From a virus, in the IMG/VR virus record IMGVR_UViG_3300020578_004460, positions 1 through 26,608 of that record: a stretch of DNA of 26,608 nucleotides; one strand, 5' to 3'. Of the stretch, positions 806-23,265 are shown one piece after another. Below the pieces are notes generated by a model. It searched no databases and had not been told where the DNA came from. It saw only the letters and a program-made list of their open reading frames with translations. Positions within the stretch are counted from its first letter, which is position 1. Each line of letters opens with the position of its first letter. Both the position numbers and the translations under genes were made by a program.

Positions 806-1939
806 ATGACAAAATATGAATTAGTTGATAATTCTCATAATGATTTTTTGATATTTCCGCATCAGCATCTTCTCAGTATCGAGACGCTGACTGCACCGCA
901 GATTAATCATCTGCTCAATTTATCAAATTATCATGCTATGGTCCATGAGCGCGAAATTGCGCGGCTTAATCGGCAAATTAGATCGATACCAACAAGCAAA
1001 TCTCCATCTTTTACTCTCAGCCGTCGCATGAGCCGCGTCATGACGCGGCGTACACTTAAAGGATATAGCCTGATCCTCCTCTTTTTCGAGACCTCGACGC
1101 GCACGCGCACGTCATTCGAGTTGGCGGGCAAGCGGCTCGGCGCCGACACGGTCAACATTTCGGTCGCGACCAGCGCGATCAAGAAGGGTGAAACGCTCAT
1201 CGATACTGCGATGACTTTGAATGCTATGCACCCGGACGTATTAGTGGTCAGACACCCGGAAGCCGGCGCAGTCAATTTACTTGCACGTCATGTTAACTGC
1301 GCGGTGATCAATGCGGGCGACGGTGGTCATGAACATCCGACACAGGCGCTGATCGATGCTCTTACAATTCAAAAAAGGCGAGGCCAAATTAACGGTCTTA
1401 CGATTGCGATCTGCGGCGACATCCTGCACAGCCGGGTCGCGCGCTCGAACATTCACCTGTTCAACAAGCTCGGCGCGCGCGTGCGCCTGATCGCGCCGCC
1501 GACGCTCCTGCCGACCGCGGTCGAGACCTTCGGCGTCGAGGTGTTCCACGACATGCGTAAGGGTCTGAAGGACGTAGATGTCGTCATGATGCTTCGACTT
1601 CAGCAGGAACGAATGCAAGGCACCTTCGTGCCCTCAACGCGCGAGTATTTCCACCTTTATGGCCTCGATAAAGAAAAGCTTGCCTTCGCCAAGCCCGACG
1701 CGCTGATCATGCACCCGGGTCCAATGAACCGAGGTGTCGAAATCGATTCAACCATAGCTGATGATATTACACGAAGTGTAATTCTTGATCAAGTCGAACT
1801 TGGTGTCGCTGTACGTCAAGCATGTATTTATGCATTGGCACGCAATCGATCAGCCTTTTCATCGTTTGAGTCAAATGTATTAAATGACAATTCTAAAGTG
1901 TTGCCAACAAAAACTGCTGATCAAATAGGTCCATGTTGA
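806..1939 (+). CDS. pyrB: Aspartate carbamoyltransferase catalytic chain
   Basis: Would catalyse carbamoyl phosphate + aspartate to N-carbamoyl-aspartate, the committed step of pyrimidine synthesis. The 377-residue product has the expected family motifs: STRTRTSF at 97-104 (carbamoyl phosphate loop), KKGE at 126-129 (lysine of the 80s loop), HPTQ at 177-180, RLQ at 264-266 (aspartate site) and HPGP at 303-306. All look intact, so it is probably active. The body reads like alphaproteobacterial PyrB. It is longer than the usual 310-340 residues because of extra sequence at about 50-88 before the phosphate loop and a roughly 30-residue tail. No regulatory pyrI follows. It overlaps pyrC by 7 bases, implying coupled translation, and class A ATCases do assemble with dihydroorotase subunits. 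Base composition is patchy: strongly GC-rich blocks (about 1083-1200 and 1393-1570) sit among AT-richer sequence. Confidence 0.95.
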
Positions 1940-3291
1940 TGATACCAACACCCGACCGCTCAGCACCGCGTCGCACCGCCTTTGTAAATGCACGTATAAT
2001 CGATCCAGAAAGTGGTCTAGACACTTTTGGCGCACTCGTGACATCTGGTAAAACAATTGTTGATTTTGGCCCACGGCTTTGGAGATGGAGTTTAAACGAA
2101 GGCGACATTGATATAATTAATTGCGGTGGTCATATACTTTGCCCAGGATTAATTGATATGCATGTCCATCTTCGTGAGCCTGGACATGAACACAAAGAAA
2201 CTATTGCAAGTGGTAGCTACTCGGCGGCGGTTGGTGGTGTCACTACCGTCGCTTGTATGCCTAATACAAATCCGACGATTGATAATGTTGCATTGATTGA
2301 ATTTATTCATCGTCGGGCTCGTGAGACTGGCCATGTCAAGGTTTATCCTTTTGCCGCGATAACTCGTGATCTTGCTGGTAAAGAAATAACTGAAATGGGT
2401 ATGCTGGCAGAGGCCGGCGCGATAGCCTTCACCGATGACGGTCGCCCCGTGGCCGACAGCCTCGTCATGCGCCGCGCGCTCACCTATTCGCGTGCCTTCG
2501 ACATGATGGTGAGCCAGCACGCGGAGGACATGTCGCTTACGGGCTGCGGCTGCATGGCCGAAGGCGAAGTAGCAACGCGACTTGGCCTACCGGGCATACC
2601 CGATGTTTCGGAACTTGTAATCGTCGAGCGAGATATTCGACTGGTAGAATTGACTGGTGGACGCTATCATGTTGCCCATATCTCAACCGCACAAGCAATC
2701 GATGCTGTACGTCAAGCGAAGCGCCGCGGCCTATCTGTCACTTGTGAAGCTACACCGCATCATTTTGCGTTGAATGACAGTGCGGTAGGTGACTACCGTA
2801 CATTCGCCAAGATGTCACCGCCACTTCGTAGCGAAGCGAATCGACTTGCGGTAATTGAAGGTCTAATAGATGGTACGATTGATGCAATCGCCACTGATCA
2901 CGCACCACACGATCAGGAATCTAAAAGAGTGCCAATGGAGCGTGCAGCCAATGGCGTAGTTGGCCTTGAGACAATGTTGCCTATATCGCTTGAACTTTAT
3001 CATGCAGGCAAGATAAGCATTATGGCTCTGATTGCGCTAATGACTCAGCGACCAGCCAATCTGATGAAGCTGCCACAGGGGCGTCTTAAGCGAGGTGCGC
3101 CAGCTGATTTAATCGTGTTTGATCCAAACGCTTGCTGGACCATCGATGCTAAAAAGTTTGTTAGTAAGTCGAAAAACTCACCGTTTGATGAACGTAAAGT
3201 CAAAGGTCGCAATTTGCTTACCATGGTTGATGGTCGGATTGTATATGGATCAGCGGCCGACTTATGTAAAAAAGATGATAAAAATATTTAA
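1933..3291 (+). CDS. pyrC: Dihydroorotase (class I)
   Basis: Would cyclise N-carbamoyl-aspartate to dihydroorotate, directly after the PyrB reaction. It is 452 residues of the amidohydrolase superfamily. Metal and substrate residues are present: DMHVH at 75-79 followed by LREPG, the FTDDG loop at 166-170, QH at 195-196, H249 in AHIST, the EATPHH segment at 272-277 and TDHAPH at 321-326. Because the metal ligands are intact, this looks like a working enzyme and not one of the inactive PyrC-like partners found beside some class A ATCases. It starts inside the last codons of pyrB (ATGTTGA), so the two genes form one operon. A GC-rich block (about 2411-2580) interrupts otherwise AT-richer sequence. 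The last 40 residues are lysine-rich and look phage-adapted. Confidence 0.95.
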
Positions 3292-3597: not shown

Positions 3598-3675
3598 GGT
3601 CCCGTAGCTCAGTTGGATTAGAGCATCAGATTTCTAATCTGAATGTCATACGTTCGAATCGTATCGGGATCACCA
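3598..3675 (+). tRNA. tRNA-Arg (anticodon UCU), CCA encoded
   Basis: A full cloverleaf can be folded: acceptor GGTCCCG with CGGGATC (one G-U pair), D stem GCTC/GAGC, anticodon stem TCAGA/TCTGA with loop TTTCTAA (anticodon TCT), variable loop ATGTC, T stem ATACG/CGTAT with loop TTCGAAT, discriminator A and an encoded CCA at 3673-3675. It reads AGA, a codon frequent in the AT-rich phage genes here and probably rare in a GC-rich host, so it is likely a codon-usage helper. Confidence 0.93.
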
Positions 3676-3682
3676 AAAACAT

Positions 3683-3766
3683 GAGCATAGGTGGTGCTCA
3701 AATGGGCACCGGTGGTGCTCAAACGAGCGTCGGTGATGATCAAATGGGCGTCGGTGTTGGCACACA
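3683..3766 (+). repeat. Four 21-nt tandem units; the last is the 5' end of the next tRNA
   Basis: Four units of 21 bases start at 3683, 3704, 3725 and 3746. Each begins G-(A/G)-G-C, then a GGTG core at positions 8-11, and three of the four end in CAAA plus one base. The fourth unit begins exactly at base 1 of the class II tRNA and covers its acceptor 5' strand and D arm. Unit 2 can fold by itself (GGGCACC with GGTGCTC). The array looks like repeated duplication of the tRNA's first 21 bases. In the long open frame it would encode a seven-residue repeat, but I do not think it is translated. Confidence 0.7.
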
Positions 3767-3837
3767 GGGAGGTCTTATAAACCTTTCAGCGGCAGATAAC
3801 CGTTCTCGAAAAGGTTCGAATCCTTTGGCGCCTACCA
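3746..3837 (+). tRNA. Class II tRNA with UAU anticodon, atypical
   Basis: Acceptor GGGCGTC (3746-3752) pairs with GGCGCCT (3827-3833), followed by A and an encoded CCA at 3835-3837. The T arm is normal (AAAGG, loop TTCGAAT, CCTTT). The anticodon stem GAGGT/ACCTT holds loop CTTATAA, giving anticodon TAT, which would read AUA (Ile). Unlike ordinary tRNA-Ile it has a 24-base variable region with a CGG/CCG stem, the class II shape of Leu, Ser and Tyr tRNAs, and a short D arm (GTGT/ACAC around a four-base loop). The anticodon helix can extend to 7 bp. What amino acid it carries cannot be told from sequence. AUA is common in these AT-rich genes. Confidence 0.7.
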
Positions 3838-3842
3838 AATAT

Positions 3843-3916
3843 CTGGGATTAGCTCAGTCTGGTAGAGCATCTGCTCCGGAAGCAGGTTGTCGGAAGTTCG
3901 AATCTTCCATCCCAGA
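3843..3916 (+). tRNA. tRNA-Pro (anticodon CGG), C33 and A37, no CCA
   Basis: Acceptor CTGGGAT pairs with ATCCCAG, giving the C1-G72 pair typical of bacterial tRNA-Pro. D stem GCTC/GAGC, anticodon stem TCTGC/GCAGG, T stem GGAAG/CTTCC with loop TTCGAAT. The loop TCCGGAA places CGG at 34-36. The arm closely resembles tRNA-Pro(CGG) of alphaproteobacteria, but base 33 is C instead of the nearly invariant U and base 37 is A instead of the G methylated by TrmD. The 3' end reads ACCG, so CCA must be added by the host. An Arg (CCG) reading would need a poorer stem. Confidence 0.75.
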
Positions 3917-3950
3917 CCGTTCTTTAATAGCAAATTCCTATAACTCTTCA

Positions 3951-14401: not shown

Positions 14402-15077
14402 AAATCGTTTTCCCACTAAGAAATTAGAATCTATTACTCGGGAAGATGGCCGTTGGTATAAGGTGCCGAATATAAATGATTCGACAGAAATTTGGTATGA
14501 ATCAGTTACAACGGCCATTGGAAAGGCTTCGGATAGAAGCCATCTAGAAAAATGGAAAAAGCGTATTGGTGAAAAACAAGCCGCATACATAACTAAACGC
14601 GGCGCGACACGTGGCACTACTATTCATAACATGCTAGAACAGTATATGCTTGATCCAAACAATCCAAATATTACTCTTGGTAAAATGCCTGATATTGTAG
14701 GAATGTATCATCAATTTTGTGAAATTTTACAAAAAAGTGTACAAATTGTATATGCTACTGAGTGCACATTATATAGTCATCAATATCGACTAGCAGGCAC
14801 ATGTGACCTTGTCGCAAAAGTATTTGATAAATTAACACTTATAGATTATAAGACTTCTCGCAGTTTTAAAAAACGTGAAAACATTCATGATTATTTCTTG
14901 CAAATGGCCGCATATTCTTTTATGATAGAAGAGATGTTTGGCGTTAAAATAGAAACAAATATAATTTTAATGTGTATTGAAGATGCACATAAAACTCAAG
15001 TTTTTTTTAGTGATCCTTATAAATATATGATGGATCAGTTTTTCTTAAATAGAAGAAAGGATGCAACGGTGTCATGA
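14370..15077 (+). CDS. PD-(D/E)XK exonuclease (RecB/Cas4-like)
   Basis: A 235-residue nuclease. Motifs in order: RGTTIHNMLEQYM (H86, motif I), AGTCDLVAK (D145), LIDYKTS (D159-Y-K161, the catalytic D-x-K) and FLQMAAYSFMIEE (Q178 and Y182, motif III). This is the RecB-family layout. No cysteine cluster is seen, so it is not an iron-sulphur Cas4. A TTG start at 14370 is chosen because GAAGGA lies 8 bases upstream and no ATG fits before the conserved region; the gene therefore overlaps phoH by 32 bases. It likely processes DNA ends in phage recombination or host DNA breakdown. Confidence 0.9.
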   Translation: MLNLNKAFTFENRFPTKKLESITREDGRWYKVPNINDSTEIWYESVTTAIGKASDRSHLEKWKKRIGEKQAAYITKRGATRGTTIHNMLEQYMLDPNNPNITLGKMPDIVGMYHQFCEILQKSVQIVYATECTLYSHQYRLAGTCDLVAKVFDKLTLIDYKTSRSFKKRENIHDYFLQMAAYSFMIEEMFGVKIETNIILMCIEDAHKTQVFFSDPYKYMMDQFFLNRRKDATVS

Positions 15078-15574
15078 AAAAGATATGTAATCAATATTCA
15101 ATATCATCTGTTTTTTACATATTACTATTTTTGTTAATGACTACAGGATTAATTTTTGTATCACATACATATGCAAAAGCTTCATTAATAAGTAATCATG
15201 AAAATTCTTCAGTACATTTTTATGATAGAAAAATTGCTTGTGGCAATACTGAAGAAATTCTTTCTGACTTAACGAATGAAAAATTCATGAATTATGATAT
15301 ATTAGGTTCAATAAATCCACAAAAATTTCCAGAAAATTTACAAGAAACTCCACAAGTAATATTAATGATATTTAATAACGGTACAAATTTTGTCGTTTTA
15401 GAAATGATTAATAATGGTATTTCGTGCGTGCTAAGTTCTGGAGTATTACCAGATACTAAAATTCAAAAATTACCGCCAGAGACACCAGAGCCAAAACAAT
15501 CAAATCCATCAAATCCGGTTGATCCGAAGGACGATTCGAAGACTCCGTCCGGAGCACCTAAATTTAACTTTTAA
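15074..15574 (+). CDS. Exported or membrane-anchored protein, first gene of envelope cassette
   Basis: 166 residues. One hydrophobic helix (about 13-34) ends in SHTYAKA, which fits a signal peptide with an A-x-A cleavage site, so the mature part should be periplasmic. The mature domain has two cysteines (about 56 and 135) that could form a disulphide, an MIFNNGTNFVVLEMINNG strand pair, and a disordered proline-rich tail (PPETPEPKQSNPSNP). No known family. Its start overlaps the nuclease stop (ATGA) and it is followed 18 bases later by the ExbB-like gene, so it is probably part of the same envelope complex. Confidence 0.8.
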   Translation: MKKICNQYSISSVFYILLFLLMTTGLIFVSHTYAKASLISNHENSSVHFYDRKIACGNTEEILSDLTNEKFMNYDILGSINPQKFPENLQETPQVILMIFNNGTNFVVLEMINNGISCVLSSGVLPDTKIQKLPPETPEPKQSNPSNPVDPKDDSKTPSGAPKFNF

Positions 15575-15592
15575 AAAAATAAAGATAATGAC

Positions 15593-16063
15593 ATGAGCAA
15601 CATAACTAGTTTAGCTTGGTTTGTCCAAATTGCTTTAACAGTATTTGCTTCTGTTTTAATGCATAAATTTGGTTGGTTTGAAATGATGTATCATACTGAT
15701 CAAACAAAAATATCAATAATTATCATTGTACTTTTTATCATATGTTCTGGCACAATTGGTTACTTGAGTTTTAAACCAAGAAATTATAAAATTATTGAAA
15801 AACTATCTAATTATGTATGGTTCGGTTCTGAAACAATGACAACTTTAGGAATGATTGGCACTGTTGCTGGCTTTTTAATTATGTTAGGCACAGCATTTTC
15901 TTCTTTGAATCTTGATAGTAAGACGAACATTCAAGAAGCTATACACTTTATGGCAATAGGTATGAGCACCGCGCTTGTAACCACTCTTGTTGGTCTTGTC
16001 TGTTCAACACTTACAAAAATACAAATGGTAATTTATGAACAACGGTCAAATAATTTAAAATAA
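15593..16063 (+). CDS. MotA/TolQ/ExbB-like proton channel subunit
   Basis: A 156-residue protein with four hydrophobic segments (about 8-24, 40-60, 82-104 and 119-142). The last two carry the family signature: TLGMIGTVAGFLIMLGTAF, then A-I-x-x-M-A-I-G-M-S-T-A-L-V-T-T-L-V-G-L, which corresponds to L-G-L-x-G-T-V-x-G-I and G-I-A-x-A-L-x-T-T-x-x-G-L in ExbB, TolQ and MotA, including the threonines lining the proton path. It lacks a long cytoplasmic loop, so it is a compact version. ExbB-type pentamers surround an ExbD-type dimer; the next gene encodes such a partner. A hydrophobic look-alike is possible but less likely given the paired gene. Confidence 0.82.
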   Translation: MSNITSLAWFVQIALTVFASVLMHKFGWFEMMYHTDQTKISIIIIVLFIICSGTIGYLSFKPRNYKIIEKLSNYVWFGSETMTTLGMIGTVAGFLIMLGTAFSSLNLDSKTNIQEAIHFMAIGMSTALVTTLVGLVCSTLTKIQMVIYEQRSNNLK

Positions 16064-16067
16064 TATT

Positions 16068-16721
16068 ATGACTAATCATCAAAATTTCAAAAATACAATC
16101 GGATTTGTTGATTTGTTATTTAATCTTCTTCTTGGATTTGTATTTTTATTTTTAATTGCATTTATCAGCATAAATCCATTGGCCGAAAAAGAAATATTTG
16201 ATCCTAAGGCAGAATATCTTATTGTTATGAATTGGAACAAAGATAGTGAAAATGATATAGATTTATGGATAAAAGATGATAGAGGAGGTATTGTTAGTTT
16301 TCGTAATAAAGAATTTAATCTAGTCAATCTTGATCGTGATGATCGTGGAAAAAGAAATGATACATTAATAAAAAATGATAATAAACAAGAAGAGATTCTT
16401 ATTAATCGAGAAGTTTTAAGTATTCGCTCAAAATCTCCTCGATCTTTTATAGTAACGGTGCAATTTTATTCTCTAGATATAATGGGTAGTCCTAATCCAA
16501 TGAGTACACAGAACAAAAATACACCTGAAGAAATCACCGTAGAGTTTATACGAGTAAATCCATATGAAATTTTATCAACAAAGACTGTAACACTTGAAAT
16601 GGCCAGACAAGAAAAGAATGTGTTTGCTTTTGATATTAAAGAAGACGGCTCTGTTGAATTTAGAGACAGTGATGAATTAATTGCTACTGATAATAAAGCT
16701 CCAGTAATAGAAATGTTTTAA
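16068..16721 (+). CDS. ExbD/TolR/MotB-like protein with periplasmic beta domain
   Basis: 217 residues. A short cytoplasmic N-terminus leads into one membrane helix (about 12-34, GFVDLLFNLLLGFVFLFLIA) with an aspartate (D15) at its start, exactly where ExbD, TolR and MotB carry the proton-binding aspartate (D-x-x-x-x-L-L). The rest should be periplasmic: a beta-rich domain with DIDLWIKDDRGG, a second acidic stretch LDRDDRGKRND and SFIVTVQFYS. These aspartates may bind calcium. There is no OmpA-type peptidoglycan domain, unlike MotB. It sits 4 bases after the ExbB-like gene. Its family is inferred from the helix, its partner and topology. Confidence 0.78.
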   Translation: MTNHQNFKNTIGFVDLLFNLLLGFVFLFLIAFISINPLAEKEIFDPKAEYLIVMNWNKDSENDIDLWIKDDRGGIVSFRNKEFNLVNLDRDDRGKRNDTLIKNDNKQEEILINREVLSIRSKSPRSFIVTVQFYSLDIMGSPNPMSTQNKNTPEEITVEFIRVNPYEILSTKTVTLEMARQEKNVFAFDIKEDGSVEFRDSDELIATDNKAPVIEMF

Positions 16722-16723
16722 AT

Positions 16724-17194
16724 ATGTTTATGGAATATAATTCTTTAACAATGTTATTGCTATGGTCGTTTGCAGGAATAGTTTGCTTTATGCCTTTACT
16801 CATTAAGTCTGTAATGTTAAAATATATAGTTATACCAATAATACTCATTATAATCTATGCGTCGTTCACGATTAATGATCAGTTCATAGGAAGACCACGA
16901 TACGAAACACCACAATATCAATTTATCTTTAAATCATATTCAACTTCTACGATAAAAGATAAAAAATACATTACAATGTGGATTGTGGACAAAGATGGAG
17001 ATTTGCTTGTTAGATTTCCATGGACAGAGGAAATTTTTAAGGCGCTGGAGAAAGCCAAAAAAAGGTCTGAAGAAGGCTTAACTCAGATTGGAAAATTTAA
17101 TAAAAAGCAAAAACAAGAAAAATATAATGAAGAAGAGCCTGATACTTTAGAGTTTTATGATTTTCCTGTAGAAAAAATATATCCAAAGGAATAA
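16724..17194 (+). CDS. Two-helix membrane protein, last gene of envelope cassette
   Basis: 156 residues: two hydrophobic helices (about 9-27 and 30-49), then a region with KYITMWIVDKDGDLLVRFPW that resembles the L-W-I-K-D-D-R-G-G strand of the ExbD-like neighbour, then a helical, lysine/glutamate-rich segment and an acidic tail. Both starts ATG 16724 and ATG 16730 are possible. It follows the ExbD-like gene by 2 bases, so coupled translation is likely. It ends next to a convergent minus-strand gene. No known family; probably a third component of the same complex. Confidence 0.75.
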   Translation: MFMEYNSLTMLLLWSFAGIVCFMPLLIKSVMLKYIVIPIILIIIYASFTINDQFIGRPRYETPQYQFIFKSYSTSTIKDKKYITMWIVDKDGDLLVRFPWTEEIFKALEKAKKRSEEGLTQIGKFNKKQKQEKYNEEEPDTLEFYDFPVEKIYPKE

Positions 17195-17392: not shown

Positions 17393-17500
17393 GACCGGCG
17401 GCCGCCACGCCCTGCACTCCATGAATTTCCCGATCGGGAAATAGCAGGGCACAATTGGCCCAAACGTCGGGGAAATTTCCCGATCGGGAAATTTCGTCTT
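17393..17500. repeat. GC-rich island with two perfect palindromes and a nested stem
   Basis: A GC-rich block of about 100 bases in a very AT-rich gap. It holds an 18-base perfect palindrome at 17425-17442 and a 24-base perfect palindrome at 17472-17495, both centred on TTTCCCGATCGGGAAA. The first is itself enclosed by a 7-base inverted repeat, GCCCTGC (17409-17415) with GCAGGGC (17444-17450). The second is followed by GTCTTTTT and could end plus-strand transcription. Two identical operator-like centres suggest binding of a dimeric repressor or a replication protein. No regulator gene lies beside it. Function is inference. Confidence 0.75.
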
Positions 17501-17593: not shown

Positions 17594-17688
17594 TAAGTGA
17601 TTGATTTTATTGATAAAAATAAATTACTTAATAAAATCAATGACTTACGACTCGGGAATTGTTAAGTGATTGATTTTATTGATAAAAA
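17594..17688. repeat. AT-rich inverted and direct repeats in intergenic region
   Basis: The 18-base arm TAAGTGATTGATTTTATT at 17594-17611 has an inverted copy at 17630-17647 with one mismatch. A direct 25-base copy (AAGTGATTGATTTTATTGAT plus A's) occurs at 17595-17619 and 17664-17688, and a diverged copy lies at 6959-6983 before another promoter. The second copy forms the upstream part of the promoter at 17717. The 17345-17832 stretch holds no other gene that I can support; it could be a promoter array or an origin-like region. Confidence 0.7.
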
Positions 17689-17716
17689 AAATATAAAAAA
17701 ATATAAAAAATAATGG

Positions 17717-17832: not shown

Positions 17833-18309
17833 ATGCACTATACAAAGTTTGCCCTAGTTGGTGTGGCCGCGCTAAGTCTTGGACTAGCCGCATGCCAGCA
17901 ACAGGGTCCAAAACAGTCTCTTGGCACACTTGGTGGTGCTGCAATTGGCGCTTTGGGTGGTTCGCAAATTGGTGATGGTCGTGGCAAACTTGTTGCGGTT
18001 GCTGTAGGCACTCTTCTTGGTGCCGTCATCGGCAATGAAATCGGCTTGTCCTTAGATAAGGCCGATAAACTGTATGCCAATCAAACCGCCAATTATGCGT
18101 TAGAACAAAACCGGTCGGGACAGCAATCGACATGGCAGAACCCGGATTCTGGTAACTATGGTACCATAACGCCAACTCGCACCATTTATAATGATGTTGG
18201 CCAGCCCTGCCGTGAGTACCAGCAGACTATCACGGTTGGTGGTAGGTCTCAATCAGGATACGGCACCGCGTGTCGCGACGCGAACGGCGACTGGCGTATC
18301 TCTAACTAG
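17833..18309 (+). CDS. Glycine-zipper outer membrane lipoprotein (17-kDa antigen-like)
   Basis: 158 residues. A signal peptide (about 1-20) ends in the lipobox LAAC, so the cysteine at 21 should be lipid-modified and the protein anchored in the envelope. Residues about 32-75 form a glycine zipper (GTLGGAAIGALGGSQIGDG and GTLLGAVIGNEIG), as in the rickettsial 17-kDa surface antigen family common in alphaproteobacteria. The C-terminal domain (YGTITPTRTIYNDVGQPCRE to CRDANGDWRI) is also typical of that family, with paired cysteines. Base composition is richer in GC than the neighbours, suggesting capture from a host. It has its own early promoter. Phage lipoproteins often block superinfection; here that is inference. 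Confidence 0.9.
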   Translation: MHYTKFALVGVAALSLGLAACQQQGPKQSLGTLGGAAIGALGGSQIGDGRGKLVAVAVGTLLGAVIGNEIGLSLDKADKLYANQTANYALEQNRSGQQSTWQNPDSGNYGTITPTRTIYNDVGQPCREYQQTITVGGRSQSGYGTACRDANGDWRISN

Positions 18310-22305: not shown

Positions 22306-23265
22306 ATGAATGAAGATTTACTAAGTTGGCCAGATCGATTTTTTGCAAAAAAGTGGGCCCACTATCGATATGTGTATAGCAATAAAATTGTTATTGTAAC
22401 TGGTGGATTTGATCCACTTCACTCTGGTCACATTGAGTATTTTAATGCAGCAAAGGCGCTGGGCGATAAACTTGTTGTAGGCTTAAACTCTGATGCGTGG
22501 TTAACTCGTAAAAGAGGTTTGCCATTTATGCCACTACTTGAACGGTACAAAATTATTAAAGCACTAAAAATAGTAGATTATGTCATTGAGTTTAACGATG
22601 ATGATAATTCTGCAAGAAATGCAATCAAGATTGTAAGAGAAGCATTTCCAAATGCAAAATTGATTTTTGCAAATGGTGGTGACAGAAATATAAATAATAC
22701 AGTTGAACAAGATATACAAGATGATAATTTAAAATTTGTATTTGATGTTGGTGGTAATCATAAAATAAACTCTTCTTCTTGGATTCTTAATAATTATGCT
22801 CAGAACATTTTACATAAAAGCGAACGGTCACTAAAAGAGGAACAGTTATTAGCAAAGAGTTATGAAAATAAAATTAAGCAATGGGGATATTATAGAGTAT
22901 TGTATGAAATGCCTACATTAAAAGTAAAAAAATTAGTTGTTAATCCAGGCGCTTCATTAAGTATGCAAAAACACAATTATCGAAATGAATATTGGCATGT
23001 TATATCTGGAAGAGGTGTGATGTATGAAGAAATACCTAAAGATATAAAATCATATTTTGATGGTGCACCATACGGCGTATGTACAGATGATCAAGACGAT
23101 GAAGATAGAATAATAAAAAAAGAATTATATAAAAATAGCTACATAAATATTCCAATTGGTTCTTGGCATAAATTATCAAATCCGTTTGATGAATTGCTTC
23201 ATATTATTGAAATACAATGGGGGTTAAAATGCATTGAAGAAGATATTGAACGAAAAAACTTTTAA
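22306..23265 (+). CDS. Nucleotidyltransferase-cupin fusion (sugar nucleotide metabolism)
   Basis: 319 residues in two domains. Residues about 26-165: a cytidylyltransferase-like domain with TGGFDPLHSGH (HSGH at 39-42, the nucleotide-binding motif), VGLNSDAWLTRKRG and MPLLERYKII, most like the HldE/RfaE C-terminal type. Residues about 190-310: a cupin like type II mannose-6-phosphate isomerase, with WGYYRVLYE, the metal-binding S-M-Q-K-H...N-E-Y-W-H-V-I-S-G-R-G and IPIGSWHKLSNP. It probably makes or interconverts an activated sugar for capsule, LPS or a phage glycan. Ribosome binding site GGAGTG 8 bases upstream. The glycosyltransferase at 5972 could be a user, though not adjacent. Confidence 0.88.
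   Translation: MNEDLLSWPDRFFAKKWAHYRYVYSNKIVIVTGGFDPLHSGHIEYFNAAKALGDKLVVGLNSDAWLTRKRGLPFMPLLERYKIIKALKIVDYVIEFNDDDNSARNAIKIVREAFPNAKLIFANGGDRNINNTVEQDIQDDNLKFVFDVGGNHKINSSSWILNNYAQNILHKSERSLKEEQLLAKSYENKIKQWGYYRVLYEMPTLKVKKLVVNPGASLSMQKHNYRNEYWHVISGRGVMYEEIPKDIKSYFDGAPYGVCTDDQDDEDRIIKKELYKNSYINIPIGSWHKLSNPFDELLHIIEIQWGLKCIEEDIERKNF

Follow-up and report, generated by a model that had tools for sequence, protein, structure and literature searches.

A three-gene set of phages and bacteria that probably represents a new branch within the superfamily of ion-driven motors

Rotary ion-driven motors are known from flagella, the Ton and Tol systems, gliding and the Zorya defence, and the characterised relatives in the MotA/TolQ/ExbB superfamily are ion-driven. 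In GldLM, the motor of gliding and type 9 secretion, GldL contains two helices and GldM contains four domains, the plan of GldM being a membrane helix followed by a periplasmic beta-sandwich. The membrane Asp of the Ton and Tol motors is thought to be the proton carrier (PMC12215075), and Zorya requires the peptidoglycan-binding domain of ZorB, a structured ZorA tail and effectors (PMC11890865). In a 2025 survey of MotAB homologues, many unnamed non-flagellar motors were grouped as generic ion transporters, and phages were named in connection with Zorya (PMC12505986). A search of the open-access full-text literature found no report of a phage-encoded motor of the type described here, or of this branch itself.

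In our study, the window (the whole stretch of DNA that was analysed) was a virus record of 26,608 bases, which was found to contain the T4-type replication genes gp32, gp59, T4 RNase H and PhoH. The window was AT-rich, with a G+C content of about 0.30 outside a few stretches. It contained four consecutive ORFs, named A, B, C and D (Table 1), with 18, 4 and 2 bases between them. The original prediction, made from the letters of the DNA, had described these four ORFs with the same spacings, together with two motifs of B and the D15 residue of C, and all of these were present, the motifs as GTVAG (residues 89–93) and GMSTALVTTLVGL (residues 123–135). It had also proposed that the four genes likely form one complex; this was not supported, since A was lineage-specific and the conserved unit is B-C-D, which forms a strict module. 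The same three-gene set was found in hundreds of other phages and in many bacterial chromosomes, so that the rotary-motor family appears to contain a branch that has not been described before. We consider that B-C-D, common to phages and bacteria, most likely represents a new branch within the superfamily of ion-driven motors. With a probability of roughly 0.6, the window's set is a phage-borne, shortened version of a 5:2-type ion-driven envelope motor that belongs to an uncharacterised bacterial family.

Table 1. Positions of the four ORFs in the window.
ORF	Description	Position	Strand
A	Small exported protein upstream of B	15074..15574	+
B	156-aa four-helix channel subunit of the MotA/TolQ/ExbB family, almost without cytoplasmic domain	15593..16063	+
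C	Single membrane helix with D15, followed by periplasmic beta-sandwich	16068..16721	+
D	Two membrane helices, positive loop, soluble stretch and tail with P..K motif	16724..17194	+

B is a genuine member of the MotA/TolQ/ExbB family because of its Pfam score, its MotA profile match and its first 46 fold neighbours, which were all stators. The match to Pfam MotA_ExbB (PF01618) was 29.7 bits against a cut-off of 22.9 (E 6e-7). All of the first relatives of B (11/11) matched the same family at E <= 1, and the copies from large viral records were all above its cut-off (12/12). When a profile of 57 B relatives was compared with solved structures, the best match was MotA 8gqy (3.9e-6) followed by another MotA (0.002), PomA (0.01), a ZorA-type chain (0.05) and TolQ (0.14). 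The AlphaFold model of B (pLDDT 86.4) contained helices at residues 3–25, 40–60, 65–103 and 110–155, the last two being long, and its first 46 PDB fold matches in Foldseek were all TolQ, ExbB, PomA, ZorA or MotA, each of them weak (E >= 0.08). The D36, S41, G89, G123, T131 and G134 residues were invariant across the 57 relatives, and the G86, G89, T131 and G134 residues of the pore-lining helices were kept in phage as well as genomic relatives. The pore Thr (T131) was found in 72/72 phage rows and 61/61 genomic rows. Judged by sequence, B is closer to the four-helix MotA plan (MotA/PomA/ZorA) than to ExbB. The MotA/TolQ/ExbB match on which the original prediction had staked its channel protein was thus obtained. 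Its wider description, an ExbB/ExbD-like proton-motor cassette, was sustained for the proton-motor type of B and C but not for the ExbB/ExbD identity, because B was nearer to MotA/PomA/ZorA and the periplasmic domain of C was not ExbD-like. A match of B to Cyanophage S-CAM9 (E 3) was located on the strand opposite to the annotated genes and was dropped.

The AlphaFold model of C (pLDDT 88.0) contained a helix at residues 6–35 followed by an all-beta sandwich. The membrane Asp (D15) was invariant in 63/63 aligned relatives, and in a wider count it was found in 71/72 phage rows and 62/63 genomic rows. The sole phage row without Asp in the D15 column (L053) contained an Asp a few columns away, and the chromosomal C of L188 (7096–7782, in an 8-Mb genome) contained Val at the position of the membrane Asp. 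At the L188 locus, D was followed by a phosphoesterase-like and then a kinase-like gene. The soluble domain contained an acidic set, D63, D65, D91, D92 and E115, which was invariant in 63 relatives. The best PDB match of the C model in Foldseek was 2qng (4.7e-3), which we take to be TerD-like, followed by PAD4 and DUF4425 domains, these fold matches being weak. Both the acidic set and the type of fold that was matched would suit the binding of a metal, for example calcium, by the beta-sandwich. No TerD sequences for comparison with C were found in the sampled order.

Outside its membrane helix, C is unlike ExbD/TolR. Pfam ExbD (PF02472) was listed at E <= 0.1 for 0/63 C members, and ExbD/TolR chains were absent among the listed fold matches of the C model. 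In an hhalign comparison with 12 TolR/ExbD sequences, D15 was placed on the TolR/ExbD Asp in a weak alignment (p 0.004, probability 8%). The original prediction had called C an ExbD/TolR/MotB-like protein; the single helix with a conserved Asp bears this out, whereas the lack of a Pfam ExbD match and the different periplasmic fold do not. No peptidoglycan-binding domain was found in C, and the C of the window had no Pfam match. One chromosomal C was above the cut-off of DUF2135 (PF09906; 22.3 against 22 bits) and other relatives matched this family weakly, most C members, including that of the window, being below the cut-off; C differs from DUF2135 in its extra membrane helix with Asp. In some relatives the beta domain was matched by phrog_1735; this family, 673 positions long, consists of other proteins and was rejected. 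Nothing useful came from scanning C and D of the window by themselves against PHROG and Pfam. A tandem pair of C-like genes was found at L206:3018–4254, the second gene being devoid of the usual membrane helix, and B was not found alongside.

D contained two hydrophobic helices with a charge pattern of -0.7 / +1.6 / 0 around them. Because the two helices are joined by a positively charged loop, the pattern suggests that both ends of D are periplasmic. The K155 residue of the terminal P..K motif was invariant (58/58 rows), and the motif was also present in the bacterial copies. D matched neither a known Pfam family nor a solved structure.

B-C-D resembled MotAB/PomAB in its four-helix channel subunit and in a partner whose single membrane helix carries a presumably critical Asp, and the best solved-structure match of B was found in this group (MotA 8gqy, with PomA further down). 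It differed from MotAB/PomAB in that B was almost devoid of the cytoplasmic torque domain, the place of the OmpA-like peptidoglycan-binding domain was taken by a beta-sandwich in C, and D was present as a third component. With ExbBD-TonB and TolQR-TolA, the set shared a plan of three genes (a channel, an Asp-helix partner and a membrane protein with a periplasmic part) and the weakly aligned TolR Asp. However, C was devoid of the ExbD/TolR periplasmic fold and of a Pfam ExbD match, and D, set against the force transducers TonB and TolA, was embedded in the membrane and predicted to end in a periplasmic tail, with two helices instead of one and no solved relative. C shared with GldM the layout of a helix followed by a periplasmic beta-sandwich, and no match to GldL or GldM was found among the listed profile or fold matches of B and C. 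The membrane core of B matched the PADLOC ZorA2 models of Zorya (8e-9) and NCBIfam ZorA_4 (5.5e-6). However, B, with 156 aa, was devoid of the long ZorA tail and scored 25.5 bits against the NCBIfam ZorA cut-off of 500, and C had no ZorB match and no peptidoglycan-binding domain, its modelled domain being a beta-sandwich. The ZorC, ZorD and ZorE models had no match in A, C or D, and no such gene adjoined the set in the window. Membership of B-C-D in Zorya was ruled out by these cut-offs and missing parts.

A tblastn search with C returned 26 rhizobial phage records (best 1e-19), nearly all annotated as just hypothetical, and in their neighbourhoods B was found before C and D after it. Scans of IMG/VR gave 38 loci through C and 391 contigs through B, and the best 80 of the 391 were kept. 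The phage loci examined numbered 120 and formed 72 clusters at 95% B identity. B followed by C on one strand was found in 120/120 of them, and D after C in 118/120, D being counted among loci that were collected through B or C. The recurrence of the B-C order is far above chance. The four-gene order, which the original prediction had suggested looking for in other phages, was constant for B, C and D but not for A. The carriers were T4-like phages, jumbo phages, Pootjesviridae, 68-kb rhizobial phages and the temperate phage 16-3, with records of up to 342 kb; the set had been ascribed to a lytic phage, and temperate phages were found to carry it as well. The cultured rhizobial phages 16-3 and P10VF both carry B-C-D, the three genes being p038, p040 and p042 in 16-3, so its function is accessible by simple gene removal. 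No neighbour family other than B, C and D was found to be common to all phage lineages (72 clusters). The dN/dS ratio was 0.06–0.33 for B, C and D each in seven closely related pairs, which indicates purifying selection on all three. Because of these ratios and the near-invariant key residues, the phage version is probably functional and not a dead decoy.

With phmmer, a weak relative of gene A was found in L057 (2.4e-5). Upstream of B, the T4-like carriers contained a gene for a small exported protein and the 16-3-type phages one for an exported trypsin-like protease, and other genes were found in this place in the remaining lineages. As the gene 5' of B differs between lineages, A was placed outside the conserved set, and it is probably a lineage-specific neighbour of the T4-like carriers that does not belong to the motor. 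A T4-late-promoter-like box, TATAAATA, was present 48 bases 5' of gene A. The box was not enriched (6 found against 5.1 expected by chance), and a T4-type late promoter before gene A was therefore dropped.

The scan of the genome collection, run with a narrow C alignment, returned prophages of rhizobia together with two loci that were surrounded by metabolic genes. With the C profile, matches were found in 63/385 genomes of the class of Shinella and in 43/369 genomes from the class to which a MAG titled Gammaproteobacteria belongs; when hits with E > 1e-10 were dropped, most of which lay in longer frames, about 58 and 40 genomes remained, respectively, centre genomes included. The carriage of B-C-D was about 10–15% of the sampled genomes in these two proteobacterial classes, and B and D adjoined C in nearly all bacterial loci returned. 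Some of the MAG carriers could be binned phage contigs. Twenty bacterial regions were read, many of them on contigs of 3.4–8.0 Mb. The flanking ORFs, read by eye, were fumarase, aconitase, era, map or sfsA and differed between genomes, and no neighbour gene common to all loci and pointing to a function was found in the phage loci and the bacterial regions read. The chromosomal B was usually about 220–300 aa long, whereas the phage B was about 150 aa long and kept the catalytic core. The tree of C contained two main clades, and as each of them held phage and chromosomal copies, at least two exchanges between cells and phages, in either direction, are needed. The C of the window grouped with aquatic phages (support 100/84 with L066). 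Directly 3' of D, one chromosome contained a FliG-like ORF, read by eye (L193:5740–6825), which may be a coincidence; another contained a VWA-FHA protein (L205:8614–10101), and several other chromosomes contained a DUF3108-like lipoprotein.

A ring of B and an axle of C are expected from homology to the 5:2 motors (PMC9389320; PMC12215075), and by analogy with these motors we infer the 5:2 stoichiometry, the ion flow and the rotation. B would form a ring of membrane helices that conducts ions, and two copies of C would form the axle, whose D15 helix takes the ion. The periplasmic beta-sandwich of C would be a moving, metal-binding head, and D would be their dedicated partner in the membrane, its periplasmic tail passing the motion on or anchoring it. 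Because the phage B is devoid of most of the cytoplasmic part, the output of the motor is probably periplasmic, through the head of C and through D. An active motor is favoured over a decoy because D15 and T131 are kept in essentially all phage copies. With a working copy of its own, the phage would maintain or modify an envelope process in the cell that it has infected once host expression stops, that process being the one which the host's own B-C-D copy would serve. Such upkeep or alteration of an envelope process during infection, from which the phage might also benefit through the exclusion of a second phage, is the most likely use of the motor and the least certain part of the reading. 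On a somewhat wider view, we hold it slightly better than an even chance that B-C-D represents a class of 5:2-type ion-driven envelope motor not described before, whose head is a metal-binding beta-sandwich and which has a dedicated partner with two helices. Such a motor would perform some envelope task in many proteobacteria, and phages would have taken it up at least twice and would deploy it in a minimal working version during infection. If it is a true working motor, phages would energise the envelope of the infected cell with a machine of their own, and an unnamed motor would be present in a sizeable share of Alpha- and Gammaproteobacteria, some very small genomes included.

Next after envelope upkeep or alteration we would guess at superinfection exclusion, in which the motor, working on the envelope of an infected cell or a lysogen, would prevent other phages from adsorbing or from getting their DNA in. 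The presence of B-C-D in temperate phages and prophages as well as in T4-like and jumbo phages, the non-structural nature of its flanking genes and the exported trypsin-like protease directly upstream in rhizobial temperate phages would agree with such a role; however, no sequence feature indicates exclusion and the set is also present in bacterial chromosomes outside prophages, and we regard it as rather unlikely. Less probable again is that the set is no rotary motor and uses the MotA/ExbB fold for an ion channel or a membrane sensor, in which C would be the head that senses calcium or a ligand. The beta-sandwich of C with its invariant acidic set and its weak fold matches (2qng, PAD4 and DUF4425), the peptidoglycan-binding domain that was not found, and the L188 C without the membrane Asp would suit a sensor, but in all other respects the membrane Asp and the pore Thr are conserved and the characterised relatives of the superfamily are ion-driven.

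A tool for lysis, which would open the outer membrane through interference with the host Tol-Pal, is improbable, although B belongs to the TolQ superfamily and the TATAAATA box precedes gene A. The box was no commoner than chance, B-C-D was found among replication or middle genes in several phages, lysis genes were non-adjacent in most loci, and the chromosomal carriers have B-C-D alongside TolB. TolB was present in 16/20 carrier genomes, which does not support B-C-D as a substitute for Tol-Pal, and this reading was rejected. A decoy or inhibitor of the Zorya defence, as the original prediction had offered on the likeness to ZorA/ZorB, is hardly to be expected despite the ZorA2 and ZorA_4 matches of the membrane core of B, because C has no ZorB match, the set is complete and evolves under purifying selection with its catalytic residues kept, it occurs complete in bacterial chromosomes with its own partners, and a decoy would need neither D nor the membrane Asp.

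Other features of the window were also recorded. Two genes that resemble pyrB (aspartate carbamoyltransferase) and pyrC (dihydroorotase) formed a pair at 806–3291 with about 50% G+C, against about 30% in the phage, and are probably a recent acquisition from a host; distant pyrC matches were found in other phage-labelled records, mostly short and unannotated. Three tRNA genes, Arg(tct), Ile(tat) and Pro(cgg), were located at 3598–3918. The gap 3' of gene D contained two exact copies of the palindrome AATTTCCCGATCGGGAAAT (17424–17493), the second of which, with its T-rich tail, looks like a terminator, and an AT-rich noncoding gap contained the 29-base direct repeat TAAGTGATTGATTTTATTGATAAAAATAA with inverted partners (17594–17691). 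A lipoprotein of the 17 kDa surface-antigen/glycine-zipper kind was encoded at 17833–18309 with raised G+C and is likely of host origin. At 22306–23265, a cytidylyltransferase-like domain was found fused to a cupin of the mannose-6-phosphate isomerase type.
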